Shown piece by piece: positions 11,951 to 31,872 of a DNA stretch of 34,078 bases (position 1 is its first letter; each line of letters starts with the position of its first letter). Source of the stretch: Bacteroidales bacterium. Its GTDB lineage: Bacteria; Bacteroidota; Bacteroidia; Bacteroidales; WCHB1-69. A model generated the notes under the pieces. That model did not search any database. It worked only from the letters and a program-made list of their open reading frames with translations, and had not been told where the DNA came from. The position numbers and the translations under genes are program-made. The stretch is from positions 1-34,078 of the forward strand of contig JAITVP010000027.1 in assembly GCA_031285725.1 (NCBI GenBank). The letters run 5' to 3'.

Positions 11951-13399
11951 ATGAGCGAAGAAATATTTTTTGGGGGTATGTATGAGGCAAAAGAGACCAA
12001 TTCAAACGGTTCTATTATCAAGGTTATCGGTGTCGGTGGAGGTGGTGGCAATGCAGTGAAACACATGTATTTAGATGGAATCGTGGGCGTGGATTTCATG
12101 ATCTGCAACACCGACCGGCAAGTATTGGAAAATAACAAGGTTCCCAAAAAGATGATGTTGGGTGACACCGGTCTGGGTGCGGGCGCAGTGCCCGAAGTGG
12201 CGAAAAAATTGGCCGATGAAAGCCGCGAAAAGATCAAGGAGTTTATCGGCGATGAGACGAAGATGTTGTTCATCACGGCCGGCATGGGCAAAGGCACGGG
12301 CACGGGTGCGGCACCGGTAGTGGCACAAGTGGCACGCGAAATGAAAATTTTGACCATTGGCGTGGTGACTTATCCTTTCCGCTTCGAAGGTTCGAAACGG
12401 GCGAAATATGCCGATGATGGTATCTCCGAACTGAAAAAACATGTTGATTCGCTCATCATTGTGAACAACGAGCGTATCCTCAACATCTATCCCGATGATG
12501 ACGTGGAGGAGGCTTTCGGTTATGCGGACGATGTGTTGAAAAATGCCGTGAAATGTATTGCGGAACTCATCACGGTGCAAGCGGCGCAAAATATTGACTT
12601 TAACGACATCAAAACCGTAATGGAAAACAGCGGTCCCGCCATGTTGGGATTGGCAATAGCCAGCGGTCCCAACCGGATCAAGGAGGTTGTGGAAGGTGCG
12701 CTTTCTTGCCCGTTATTGGATGAAAATATGATCACTAATGCCAAAAATTTCTTGTTCTTTATTAGTTACGGCAAGGATGCGCCGTTGAAAATGTCCGAAT
12801 TATCGCAAATCACGGAAGAGTTTGAAAAGTTCAAATCCGAAAATTCCGATGTGATCTGGGGACGTGCGTTAGATGAGGAATTGGGCGACAAAGTGAAACT
12901 TTCCGTGATCGTAACCAATTACGACACAAGCCAACAATCCACGGAAAGCCATCTGGAACAACCTGTGGAAGAGATCACGCTTGTTGAAAATGGTGATGCT
13001 ATCACTTCTCCTGCAACTCCCGAGAAAAAGACTTTCGTAACAGAAAGGATTTTCTCTCAAAATGACTTTCCAGACAAAGTATCCTCCGATGTGAAGGCGG
13101 AAACCGAAGTGGGAATGATGGATAACCCGGTGAGGACTCCTGAAATGGCACCCGCCCAATCCGCTGAACCCAATGCGAAAAAATTCACGTTCAAAAGTGG
13201 AACGGGCATTCTCTCCGCCTTGAAATCCTCCCCGGCCGGTGCGAAATACGACAGCAATGAATTGTTCAATGAAATGCATGAAATTCCGGCCATTGAGCGG
13301 CAAAACATGCTCAAAAACATGAACACTGAAAATCATTTTGATTCCTCCCTGTTCGAACAAAGCGATGCTAATTCGTTGTATAACAATAGAGCGGACTAA
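11951..13399 (+). CDS. ftsZ: Cell division protein FtsZ
   Basis: IKVIGVGGGGGNAVKHM, ITAGMGKGTGTGAAPVVAQVAREM tubulin signature, GVVTYPFRFEGSKR; ATG at 11951. Confidence 0.97.
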   Translation: MSEEIFFGGMYEAKETNSNGSIIKVIGVGGGGGNAVKHMYLDGIVGVDFMICNTDRQVLENNKVPKKMMLGDTGLGAGAVPEVAKKLADESREKIKEFIGDETKMLFITAGMGKGTGTGAAPVVAQVAREMKILTIGVVTYPFRFEGSKRAKYADDGISELKKHVDSLIIVNNERILNIYPDDDVEEAFGYADDVLKNAVKCIAELITVQAAQNIDFNDIKTVMENSGPAMLGLAIASGPNRIKEVVEGALSCPLLDENMITNAKNFLFFISYGKDAPLKMSELSQITEEFEKFKSENSDVIWGRALDEELGDKVKLSVIVTNYDTSQQSTESHLEQPVEEITLVENGDAITSPATPEKKTFVTERIFSQNDFPDKVSSDVKAETEVGMMDNPVRTPEMAPAQSAEPNAKKFTFKSGTGILSALKSSPAGAKYDSNELFNEMHEIPAIERQNMLKNMNTENHFDSSLFEQSDANSLYNNRAD

Positions 13400-13421
13400 T
13401 TCAATAATTCAATGAATTAGT
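13395..13421. terminator. 9-bp hairpin at the convergent ftsZ / LuxE-like junction
   Basis: actaattca (13395-13403) pairs with tgaattagt (13413-13421), overlapping the ftsZ stop; AT-rich and symmetric. Confidence 0.5.
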
Positions 13422-26973: not shown

Positions 26974-29055
26974 TCATCCGCTCACTATGTTTTCTCCCAT
27001 TTTATACCATCGAATCCCCAACCCTGCACAGTAATCCTTCCACAAATTTTGATAATAACACGAAATACTCTCATCGACAATTACTCCTTTAAAACAGACA
27101 CTCCTTTCCAAAAATTCCGGTTTAAGGGTGCAACCGTCGCATAGAATGAGATGATCAACGGTAATGAGACGATCATCGTTGTAAAATCGCATCCCTTTCC
27201 GGCAGATCAGGAAAGTTTGATCATTGAAAACCACGATATTGCCCCGTTTGAGGAATCGCTTTTCCGGCAAACAAACATCCTCGTCAAAATCCACTAATTG
27301 ACTGTTGATCTTCCGTTTCTGCTCATGATTTTTAATATGATATTGATAAACGGAATGACTTTTGTCTCCCATGAAATTATTCAACAGCACACTTTCTCCG
27401 TGATAGTTAAAATTGACCGCACTCTGTTTTGACAAAGCATAGCACGTGACGGAAATCTCTTTTTTCTTATCAATATTTGTAATAAAAGAGATAACCGGTA
27501 ATAAGGTCAACAAACCATATGCATATAATAGTATCCGTCGGCGAGGGTGCAGGACGAAGAGGGCAAGGAAGAAGAGTAGGAACAACAGTACGATTAATTG
27601 CAGAAAATGGACGTTGATATTCTGGGTGAGAGCACCCGGAAGTCCATCAATGAAAGTGACAATATCGTTCATCAGCTTGATTTCCAACGTCAAAATTTTT
27701 CCTAAGAAGACGAAAATCGTTTCACAAAACGAGAAAGCGAGCACCACTATGCCGGAAGCGATAATGATTGTGGAGAGCAAGATAACGGAAAGGTTGGTGA
27801 GCAGGAAATAGTTGGGAAACTGTCCGAAATAATAGAGGGCGTGTGGAAAAGTTCCCAACTGCGCCGCCGTGGAAACGGTTGTCAGTTTCCAAAAATAGTT
27901 CACGATCCGCCAACGGGGTTTCCACAAATTGTGGATCGATTTTTGAAAGATCACAATCCCGAACACTGCCTCATAGCTCAACTGGAAACCGATCTCGAAA
28001 AGCAACAAAGGATTGATAGACAGTAAAATAAATAGCGATGCAAAGAGACTATGAAAAATGGTAGTATTTCGTTTCAACAACCCACCAACCGTGACAAAAG
28101 AGAACATAACGGCGGATCGTTGCACGGACGGTGCCAATCCGGTGATGTTTGCGTAAGCCCAAATTGACAAAAGGAGTATAATCGCTTTAATAATGCGCAA
28201 TCTCCGTGTGAAATTTAATGGTTTTAACAAAAAATCCAAGATCATGAAGATAATCGCCACGTGCATGCCCGACACGCATAAAATATGACTCACACCGGTG
28301 GTGCTGTACTGACTCTTCAACGCCGGGTTCATCGTGTCATCGTTGCCCAGCAAGATTGCCGTGATCACACTGTACTCGTCTCCCGACATTCCCGCCAAGG
28401 AAAATTGTCGGGAGAGTTGCCGCTGGATCTTCGCCGCAAATTTTTTCATCGGCCGCACGGTTCGCCGTCCGACCATTTCAAACTTGACACTGTCCACAAA
28501 ACCGGTCAACCGAACTCCTTTCCGTTCCATATATTTCTTATAATCAAAAGAGTATGGATTTTTAGGTGGTGATATAAACGACAGTTGCGTATTCACTAAC
28601 AATTCGTCACCGTGTTGCAGCATCATACTGCGGTAACTTTTCCGGAAATAGAGTACCGCCTTCTCCATAACAAACTCTCCTGAAATGGTTTGGCTAATCT
28701 CTGCAACACATTTCACGCTGCCGGGTTTCTCCATCGGAAGATCAGTAATGGTCATCCACCAGAAATGTTCTTCTTGTAAAACATCCTCCAATTTCTCATT
28801 TTCCGGTGGCGACAATCGGTGCGAAGTGGAAGTGACTCCGTATAAAACGAAGCAATATTGCAGCAATAATCCGGCAATCCACTGTTTGCTATAGCCAAAA
28901 AAATGATAAAGCAGGGCAGATATAGGAAGTAATATTCCTAAAATCAAAAGCAAAGGATTTGTGAAATCCTTCGAAAAGGGAAAAAAATAAGCCAAAAGTA
29001 TACCAATCAAATATGGAAAAAGTAATTTTACAATGGGGTAGTTCTTGTAGTTCAT
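26974..29055 (-). CDS. comEC: ComEC/Rec2-family competence membrane protein
   Basis: N-terminal DUF4131-like region, SQYSTTGVSHILCVSGMHVAIIFMILDFLL, ANITGLAPSVQRSAVMFSFV, many TMs; C-terminal soluble region. ATG at 29055 is preferred over 29100. Confidence 0.9.
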   Translation of the reverse strand: MNYKNYPIVKLLFPYLIGILLAYFFPFSKDFTNPLLLILGILLPISALLYHFFGYSKQWIAGLLLQYCFVLYGVTSTSHRLSPPENEKLEDVLQEEHFWWMTITDLPMEKPGSVKCVAEISQTISGEFVMEKAVLYFRKSYRSMMLQHGDELLVNTQLSFISPPKNPYSFDYKKYMERKGVRLTGFVDSVKFEMVGRRTVRPMKKFAAKIQRQLSRQFSLAGMSGDEYSVITAILLGNDDTMNPALKSQYSTTGVSHILCVSGMHVAIIFMILDFLLKPLNFTRRLRIIKAIILLLSIWAYANITGLAPSVQRSAVMFSFVTVGGLLKRNTTIFHSLFASLFILLSINPLLLFEIGFQLSYEAVFGIVIFQKSIHNLWKPRWRIVNYFWKLTTVSTAAQLGTFPHALYYFGQFPNYFLLTNLSVILLSTIIIASGIVVLAFSFCETIFVFLGKILTLEIKLMNDIVTFIDGLPGALTQNINVHFLQLIVLLFLLFFLALFVLHPRRRILLYAYGLLTLLPVISFITNIDKKKEISVTCYALSKQSAVNFNYHGESVLLNNFMGDKSHSVYQYHIKNHEQKRKINSQLVDFDEDVCLPEKRFLKRGNIVVFNDQTFLICRKGMRFYNDDRLITVDHLILCDGCTLKPEFLERSVCFKGVIVDESISCYYQNLWKDYCAGLGIRWYKMGENIVSG

Positions 29056-29414
29056 GACAGCAAAGTTCCCCAAATGTACAGAAAAATATCGTATCCACAC
29101 AGAATACGATAGAACGAAGTAATCGGGTTTTGCTTTGTCGTCGCCTACGAAAGGATTTATTCGTGATCTTGTTTCAGTAAGTTTAAAATATAACTTTTCT
29201 GTTCTTTTTTGGTGGGAAATGAACCCTCATCCTTTTCGCTCTCCGCCTCACGGCGATGGATATCTCTTAATCCATACATTGACAAATTTTGCCTTTTACT
29301 TTATCAATTGCGACACCAATGATGTAATATTCTGATAATCAATCTTGTATGATTTTTATTGCTGTCCATTTTTGGACAATAAATAAGGAAAAAAGGCAGA
29401 ATACCCTTTTTCCC

Positions 29415-29942: not shown

Positions 29943-30487
29943 AAAACATTATTTTCGGCATATTTTTGATATCCGTTTTTGGAGCGGTACAGGCGCAAGG
30001 CGCCCATCCGGAACCGCCTTATCTCCCTATTGATGAGGACACTAAATTGGTCACTTACAAAGAAGTGGTAAATGAGAAAGGTGCCCCGCAGGAACTTTAC
30101 GATCGGGCGATGGTGTGGGTAAAAGATTTTTATAAAAACACTGCCGAAGTGATCAAAAACAGCGACCGCGAGACCGGTGTGATCAACATGCGCTCCAGCG
30201 CAAAGATTTATGTAACCTTAAAAGACGGCACAAAAAAATTAAAAAACATTGTTTATTACAATTTTAAGTTGGAATGTCGCCAAGATCGTTATCGTTATAC
30301 AATTACCGATTTTAATGAAAAAGCCGCCACCGCCGCCCCTATCGAGGCTTGGTATGATACCAAAAATCCGTTGTGGAATCCCAATCAGTACGAATTTCTG
30401 ATTCAGATAGATGAACAAATTAAAGCCCTGATTGAGTCCTTGGAAGAAGGCATGTTACCTAAAGTGGAAAAAGTAGATGAGTGGTAA
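29939..30487 (+). CDS. Secreted DUF4468-like domain protein
   Basis: Signal peptide MKNIIFGIFLISVFGAVQAQ; VVNEKGAPQELYDRAMVWVKDFYKNTAEVIKNSDRETGVINMRSSAKIYV...YYNFKLECRQDRYRYTITDF matches the DUF4468 layout; 4-bp overlap with folA. Confidence 0.75.
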   Translation: MKNIIFGIFLISVFGAVQAQGAHPEPPYLPIDEDTKLVTYKEVVNEKGAPQELYDRAMVWVKDFYKNTAEVIKNSDRETGVINMRSSAKIYVTLKDGTKKLKNIVYYNFKLECRQDRYRYTITDFNEKAATAAPIEAWYDTKNPLWNPNQYEFLIQIDEQIKALIESLEEGMLPKVEKVDEW

Positions 30488-31235
30488 ACTAAAATTGGCG
30501 ATGCTTTGCTTAGTAGCATTGATTGCCATTGCCTGCGGCAACAAAGTCAAAACAGGAAATGTGATGGTCAAATTCTCCTTTTCCGTGGATGGAGAGACCT
30601 TGGAACAGAACCAGATGATCTACACCAACGCCGCTGGAAACCCATATGAGGTGGATGAGGTGAAATACTTTATCTCCGATGTGGTTTTCTATCCCTCCGG
30701 AGGTCGACGAACAATCATCGACAAAAAAACCTATTACGTAGATGCAGGTATCGCCAGCACGCTGACGTGGACGATCCCCGACCCCATGCCGATCGGGCAG
30801 TACGACAGTATCCGGTTCATTTTTGGGCTATCCGCCGACCGGAACGTTTCCAACGCTTTTGTCAACCAACCCGAGGTGAACATGGCTTGGCCGGAAACGC
30901 TGGGTGGCGGCTACCACTACCTACAAATTAATGGAAAATGGAATGGAAGTGAGAGTATTACACCGTTTAATTTCCATACCGGTATTAGTAAAGTGACTTC
31001 CTCCGATTCCATCAGCCGGTTCACACACAATCATTTTTATGTCACGCTGCCGGCCAAAATATTAACTGTGGAAGAGAAGAAAACCTCCACAATCACACTG
31101 GATATGAACATCAACAATTGGTTCACAACCCCTATCGACTTCGACTTCAACTATTGGGGCGGAGCCATCATGGAAAATCCTAATGCTCAGACTGTTGCCA
31201 AGCAAAATGGGGCGGATGTTTTTTCGATAAAGTGA
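30477..31235 (+). CDS. MbnP-family lipoprotein
   Basis: Lipobox LIAIACGN; VKFSFSVDGETLEQNQMIYTNAAGNPYEVDEVKYFISDVVFYPSGG...YDSIRFIFGLSADRN...AWPETLGGGYHYLQINGKW; 11-nt overlap with the upstream gene. Confidence 0.8.
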   Translation: MSGKLKLAMLCLVALIAIACGNKVKTGNVMVKFSFSVDGETLEQNQMIYTNAAGNPYEVDEVKYFISDVVFYPSGGRRTIIDKKTYYVDAGIASTLTWTIPDPMPIGQYDSIRFIFGLSADRNVSNAFVNQPEVNMAWPETLGGGYHYLQINGKWNGSESITPFNFHTGISKVTSSDSISRFTHNHFYVTLPAKILTVEEKKTSTITLDMNINNWFTTPIDFDFNYWGGAIMENPNAQTVAKQNGADVFSIK

Positions 31236-31239
31236 GGTG

Positions 31240-31286
31240 GTTAACGAGTTGACAAGTTAACGTGTGAAACTTGTCAACTCGTTAAC
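31240..31286. terminator. Perfect 19-bp hairpin at the convergent mbnP-like / rubrerythrin junction
   Basis: gttaacgagttgacaagtt (31240-31258), 9-nt loop, aacttgtcaactcgttaac (31268-31286); 5 nt after the + stop and 8 nt before the - gene end. Confidence 0.75.
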
Positions 31287-31293
31287 TTCTTAT

Positions 31294-31872
31294 CTACATA
31301 TTCGTCTTCTTCACCTCAAAATACGCTTGTGGGTGTAGGCATGCGGGGCATTTCATCGGGGCCTTTTTATCTTTGGTCACATAGCCGCAGTTCCGGCATT
31401 GCCATTCCACCTCTTCCGATTTCTCAAAAACCTGATTGCCTTCGATATTTTTGATGAATGTGCGGTAACGGTGTTCGTGTTCTTTTTCCGCAATGGAGAT
31501 CTGACGATACATGACTGCGATTTCCGGAAAACCGTCTTGATCGGCTATATCGGCGAAATGAGGATAAATTTCCTCCCACTCTTCGTATTCACCTGCCGCC
31601 GCCTCGTAAAGATTTTCCAGTGTCGTGGCAATCACGCCCGCAGGAAAAGTAGCGGTAATTTCACACATCCCGCCTTCCAAATACTTGAACATCCGCTTCG
31701 CATGTTCTTTTTCTTGATCGGCGATTTCGGTGAAGATGGCTGAAATTTGCTCATAGCCCTCTTTTTTAGCCTGACTTGCATAATACGTATAGCGCATTCT
31801 CGCTTGCGATTCACCTGCGAAAGAGTGCATTAAATTCTTTTCGGTTTGGGTTCCTTTCACATTTCTTGACAT
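31294..31872 (-). CDS. rbr: Rubrerythrin
   Basis: AGESQARMRYTYYASQAKKEGYEQISAIFTEIADQEKEHAKRMFKYLEGG, IAEKEHEHRYR, C-terminal rubredoxin-like WQCRNCGYV...CPACLHPQAYFEV. Confidence 0.97.
   Translation of the reverse strand: MSRNVKGTQTEKNLMHSFAGESQARMRYTYYASQAKKEGYEQISAIFTEIADQEKEHAKRMFKYLEGGMCEITATFPAGVIATTLENLYEAAAGEYEEWEEIYPHFADIADQDGFPEIAVMYRQISIAEKEHEHRYRTFIKNIEGNQVFEKSEEVEWQCRNCGYVTKDKKAPMKCPACLHPQAYFEVKKTNM

Follow-up and report, generated by a model that had tools for sequence, protein, structure and literature searches.

Between the convergent mbnP and rubrerythrin genes of an uncultured Bacteroidales bacterium lies a 58-nt spacer that is almost wholly occupied by one perfect hairpin. 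The locus raises the question how such a palindrome was built, how its arms stay complementary and whether it helps to end the two transcripts. The window, meaning the whole stretch of DNA that was analysed, is the entire 34,078-nt contig C156 of a draft genome of 2.11 Mb in 197 contigs. Octamer words were assigned to family A (RAGTNNRC, including the hairpin at 31240-31286) or family B (RAYTCMAW, including the element at 13396-13421). The relevant features of the window are:

30477-31235, plus strand: gene for an MbnP-domain protein (PF20243), stop codon 4 nt short of the hairpin
31240-31258, plus strand: 5' arm of the hairpin, GTTAACGAGTTGACAAGTT, from complementarity and RNA fold
31246-31261, plus strand: two consecutive family-A octamers, GAGTTGAC and AAGTTAAC
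31259-31267: 9-nt loop, AACGTGTGA; octamer unit 3 of the 5' arm extends into its start
31268-31286, minus strand: 3' arm, AACTTGTCAACTCGTTAAC, the perfect complement of the 5' arm
31273-31288, minus strand: two consecutive family-A octamers in minus-strand reading, AAGTTAAC and GAGTTGAC
31287-31294, plus strand: moderately T-rich tail, TTCTTATC, 5/8 T, 3' of the hairpin in the mbnP transcript
31294-31872, minus strand: rubrerythrin gene (PF02915 and PF21349), stop codon 7 nt off the hairpin
13396-13421: family-B octamer array and hairpin, AATTCAATAATTCAATGAATTAG, spanning both stop codons of a convergent gene pair
2090-2150: period-8 words, AGTTCAAGAGTTCAAAGATTCAAAAGTTCA, with an inverted arm, forming a 15-bp perfect hairpin that overlaps the end of the upstream gene

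The arms at 31240-31258 and 31268-31286 are complementary at 19 of 19 positions, and a G-T pair at 31239/31287 lengthens the stem to 20. When the window was simulated 60 times with a first-order Markov model, the longest perfect arm (loops of up to about 25 nt) measured 9-12 bp. The perfect 19-bp hairpin claimed by an earlier, sequence-only reading of this DNA was thus confirmed, and the 5+3 rhythm with period 8 that it described is present in the arm as GTTAACGAG-TTGACAAG-TTAACGTG. RNA folding of the element gave −33.0 kcal/mol on the plus strand and −28.4 kcal/mol on the minus strand (z = −6.7 and −7.0), and no shuffled sequence folded equally well. In an Rfam search the element had no match above the gathering score, the weaker ones being chance resemblances to eukaryotic families.

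The hairpin is one of dozens of word-built hairpins that fill intergenic gaps in this genome. The 19-mer arm has 17 genome-wide matches with at most three mismatches against 0 for a reversed control, and the 13-mer TTRACRAGTTRAC occurs at 12 sites of the genome against 0 for the same pattern read backward, which supports the proposal that the element belongs to a family and is not unique. The octamer words are real as well, but the notion of one single word had to be abandoned, since the words are degenerate (RAGTNNRC). In the sample read (997 kb, 47% of the genome), for which nine contigs were chosen because they carry the 13-mer, so that the family-A sample counts are biased upward and the whole-genome pattern counts unaffected, RAGTNNRC recurred on the same strand 31 times at lag 8 and 9 times at lag 16. 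For RAYTCMAW the corresponding numbers were 18 and 8; other lags mostly gave 0-3 and the reversed-word controls gave 0 at lag 8. Array clusters were distributed between noncoding and coding DNA as 15/6 for family A and 12/1 for family B, with noncoding DNA making up 9% of the bases (for either family, p is about 1e-11 or lower). These and the distance figures are approximate, since ORF calling was mechanical and took the longest ORF with a minimum of 80-100 codons. Because the word families were defined and counted on the same genome, the independent checks are the reversed patterns, the shuffles and the other genomes. When spacers were scanned for tandem periods of 4-24, periods 7 and 8 and their multiples stood out, both in this genome (22 at period 7 and 12 at period 8 versus 2 and 0 after shuffling) and in 20 relatives from the same family (23 and 9 versus 1 and 1). 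The period-7 arrays in the spacers of this genome (CTGAAACTTGAAATCTGAAATC; ATTTCAG; ATTAATC) are as frequent as those of period 8, examples being L190:1627-1682, L186:94-126 and L218:201-233. The genome also holds long non-periodic spacer hairpins, at L223:11397-11467, L249:14317-14383 and L215:386-446, with arms of 33, 29 and 28 nt.

The words are arranged with a fixed handedness. In 22 of 22 two-strand clusters (13 of family A, 9 of family B) the words are on the plus strand at the left and on the minus strand at the right, as a result of which, in each transcript, the purine-richer arm precedes the U-richer arm. Word variants differ from site to site, whereas the family-A arms of one site share theirs. 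Exact mirrored words in opposite arms were found 9 times in family A versus 2.2 expected, a value reached in 0 of 3000 shuffles. These figures come from an unconditional test, as a test conditioned on hairpins is biased by their having been picked for complementarity. In family B the number was 7 versus 4.3 expected (377 of 3000 shuffles), which is not significant because the words are too uniform. Contig C181 carries a sister hairpin that shows 85.7% identity over 49 bp and has unrelated flanks. Its loop start likewise continues an octamer unit, and a C-to-T word change is present in both of its arms. The mirrored word variants and this paired change fit template switching. Of the suggestion that the perfect arms reflect recent formation or active maintenance, for example by template switching or a mobile palindrome, maintenance is supported, in that arms are kept complementary among paralogues; a mobile palindrome found no such support, as discussed below.

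The element lies between the stop codons of two convergent genes. Three of the four convergent junctions in the window do carry inverted period-8 words, as the sequence-only reading had noticed: 2090-2150, 13396-13421 and 31240-31286, with 26766/26974 as the exception. The element at 2090-2150 is built of AGTTCAAA and AGATTCAA words that are related to both octamer families and bridge them. For family A this pattern does not generalise to the genome. In the approximately 1 Mb that was read, arrays of both families together occupied 6/87 convergent, 5/87 divergent and 9/502 tandem junctions, and the mbnP/rubrerythrin junction was the only convergent one with family A, which is otherwise found mostly at divergent or tandem junctions. 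At three divergent junctions (L124:2664-2712, L183:15327-15389 and L185:5755-5809) the family-A arrays are located directly upstream of TATCTTTGC and TATTTTTGC, which by eye resemble the Bacteroidales −7 box, and could conceivably be operators or upstream elements.

One explanation of the hairpins would be that they are selected bidirectional terminators, which convergent genes need, and that their complementarity is kept by compensatory selection, as documented for terminator stems in Bacillus (PMC5381666). In 80 Bacteroidales loci, a hairpin occurs within 95 nt 3' of rubrerythrin in 44, of which 30 have a T-rich tail, while upstream, coding and shuffled controls each gave 0/80. These hairpins are species-specific, and a survey of 80 Bacteroidales loci placed hairpins at 57% of convergent junctions, compared with 25% of tandem and 4% of divergent ones. 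Family B is located at the stop codons of convergent pairs, and on either strand the handedness leaves the U-richer arm at the 3' side. On the other hand, the corresponding percentages in this genome are 12% convergent, 10% tandem and 7% divergent, the minus-strand tail on the rubrerythrin side has at most 3/8 T, and the octamer periodicity, the words common to several sites and the family-A arrays at divergent junctions are left unexplained. We consider it unlikely that selection for termination produced these elements. A consensus terminator scan gave no match at 31240-31286, but it accepts loops of 3-8 nt only and the loop here has 9. The 44 of 80 rubrerythrin genes with a hairpin imply that there is nothing unusual in a hairpin here and that its construction from octamers is the special feature. 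A 3'-end function is plausible at the mbnP/rubrerythrin junction, with its T-rich tail on the mbnP side. It would be a passive one, in transcript stabilisation or as a help in termination, with better grounds on the mbnP side than on the rubrerythrin side. Since no U-rich tail follows on the rubrerythrin side and family A is mostly found at divergent or tandem junctions, termination is not the general role of the arrays.

Comparison with relatives placed constraints on the origin of the element. No orthologous copy was found in strains or sister species among the genomes examined, so no slippage or template-switch event was directly observed. In the closest relative with a genome (G031), of which the rubrerythrin is 84% identical, the mbnP-rubrerythrin junction is absent and the rubrerythrin gene ends in an unrelated hairpin. 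The two genes are apart in the other four genomes of the genus that were examined; in these the rubrerythrin gene ended in an unrelated hairpin once, in a hairpin followed by seven T once and without hairpin twice, and TTRACRAGTTRAC sites numbered 0, 0, 0 and 2. The single alignable orthologous spacer belongs to another family-A hairpin, adjoining a gene that by eye resembles tRNA-dihydrouridine synthase and supplying its last codons and stop codon. The relative's spacer is of similar length and lacks the element, hence a simple insertion is unsupported at this site. At one family-B site the relative carries family-B-like words in a different arrangement. An excess of synteny breaks at the elements, of which few have flanking pairs that are adjacent in G031, was also considered and dropped for want of a usable baseline.

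These observations bear on the possibility that the element is a REP- or MITE-like mobile palindrome dispersed in trans by a transposase. The dispersal of near-identical hairpins with unrelated flanks, as on C181, and the sporadic distribution across genera would agree with mobility, and the genome does contain one Y1_Tnp-like ORF, of 150 aa at L302:430-882 (G000:C148). This ORF, the only candidate in a search for the Y1/TnpA_REP mobiliser envisaged in the sequence-only reading, scored 21.4 bits, below the Pfam cut-off of 23, and by eye it has the HIH motif and no obvious tyrosine at the usual Y1 position. No PDB homologue backing its identity as a transposase was found, and no credible Y1 or RAYT transposase scored above the Pfam cut-off in this 94.6% complete genome, in which the positive controls matched. 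Near the ORF a short octamer array, CCACTCGTCAACTT, lies upstream of a gene. The copies of the palindrome vary in words and length while their arms agree, the GTAG/CGTC tag of REPs is absent from the flanks, the stem foot being GTTAAC, and the alignable spacer points to replacement at similar length, with no insertion visible. The lack of tag, of a transposase above cut-off and of an insertion signature at the one checkable site makes a mobile REP appear disfavoured and, in our view, improbable.

Two further kinds of element were rejected. Uptake sequences (DUS/USS) consist of one conserved 9-12-mer present in hundreds to thousands of copies, and the 12 TTRACRAGTTRAC sites in 2.1 Mb are far too few for a DNA uptake sequence, an idea raised by the competence-family gene at 26974-29100. 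The stem foot of integron attC sites follows the consensus GTTRRRY, which GTTAACG does not fit. The arrays might also be binding sites for a sequence-specific DNA- or RNA-binding protein recognising the octamer core GTNNAC. The fixed core letters with free middle letters, the exact 8-nt spacing and the position of the L124, L183 and L185 arrays just upstream of sequences judged by eye to be −7-box-like would suit such sites. The occurrence of two word families and period-7 words here and of other words in relatives argues against a single cognate protein. A spacing of 8 bp is not in phase with the helix, and no candidate protein was found. We regard this explanation as very improbable.

We favour, with a probability of about one in two, the interpretation that the elements are lineage-specific intergenic palindromes of octamer words that started as slippage arrays, have their arms kept complementary by template switching and sometimes act as 3'-end hairpins. 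Degenerate 8-nt words, here RAGTNNRC, would expand by replication slippage in spacer DNA that is free of constraint. Fold-back template switching between facing copies would then write the reverse complement of one array opposite to it and go on correcting the arms, so that words vary between sites while the arms of each site stay complementary. Perfect stems are known to arise and to be preserved through template switching (PMC8794818). Such a palindrome at gene ends would give each of the two mRNAs a strong hairpin, and between mbnP and rubrerythrin it may take the place where other Bacteroidales rubrerythrin genes often have a terminator-like hairpin. Slips made in replication thus probably gave rise to the octamer hairpins, and the one between mbnP and rubrerythrin may help to end both transcripts. 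The orthologous spacer overwritten at similar length counts in favour of this origin and the insignificant mirroring in family B against it.

The distribution of the words is a further difficulty for slippage and template switching. Scattered and unrelated Bacteroidales genera are rich in the same octamers, which in places form long arrays without a perfect hairpin, and sister species largely lack the words of the window. AGTTTAAR occurs at 34 sites in G012, AGTTGACA-type words are present in G109 and G225, and RAYTCAAT has 12 matches in G013 and 77 in G113. Purely local slippage does not predict octamers that are shared by distant families (G109/G225; G013/G113) and are rare in sister species. 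An undescribed Bacteroidales process by which degenerate words of 7 and 8 nt enter spacers as mirrored arrays from the outside in, perhaps linked to an enzyme that moves horizontally or to a replication property in common, would accommodate AGTTRACR, RAYTCAAT and AGTTTAAR in unrelated genera and their scarcity in sister species, and also spacers overwritten at roughly constant length; we give it a small chance only. Several related arrays were seen in these genomes. At L283, L286 and L288-L290 of G012 a second, palindromic repeat, TGTAGGGCCGTCGCGTGCGGCGACC, is flanked by AGTTTAAR arrays. In G113, which belongs to another Bacteroidales family, GATTCAAT arrays of up to about 200 nt occur on C52, C476, C541 and C682 (L389), with 77 two-unit matches. 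The backward control CARTTGARCARTT is high in G252 (39/17) and G224 (15/22), where another period-8 word seems favoured, and at L355 (G003) an orthologous gene ends within a period-7 array, GTTAGAATTTAGAATTTAGAATTTAGA, its stop codon being part of the array.

Among known systems the closest kind is the heptamer intergenic arrays, i.e. the STRR of cyanobacteria and the TAACTGA arrays of Beggiatoaceae, Cyanobacteria and a few Bacteroidetes including Paludibacter (PMC4679880). Like the octamer arrays these are short tandem words of two to many copies that are found mostly in spacers, lie near start or stop codons and have a sporadic phylogenetic distribution. TAACTGA is one invariant heptamer, mostly in direct repeats (169 direct-repeat sets and one indirect repeat in the reference genome; PMC4679880), whereas the words described here are degenerate octamers, with lag 8 in both families, of fixed handedness and mirrored into hairpins; the period-7 arrays of this genome are separate. 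These differences in unit length, degeneracy and mirrored, handed arrangement make the octamer class a distinct variant beside the heptamer arrays. REP/RAYT elements (PMC3733652) are similar as extragenic palindromes of 20-50 nt downstream of genes and between convergent genes, but have a constant sequence where the present element has internal 8-nt periodicity. Bidirectional intrinsic terminators share the strong hairpin between convergent stop codons and differ in the U-tract missing here on one side, the word-repeat construction and the sister elements at divergent junctions. Quasipalindrome correction by template switching (PMC8794818, PMC7202029) likewise yields arms that are identical per site and sequences that differ between sites, as found for the shared variants of family A; it is a mutational mechanism rather than an element family and does not by itself make an octamer lattice. 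We found no description of octamer-word palindromes in Bacteroidales in the open-access literature.

If the favoured interpretation is correct, the octamer, mirrored class would join the little-explained short-word intergenic arrays, and the elements would provide a natural record of perfect palindromes arising and persisting in bacterial spacers and help to explain the fast-changing hairpins at Bacteroidales gene ends.
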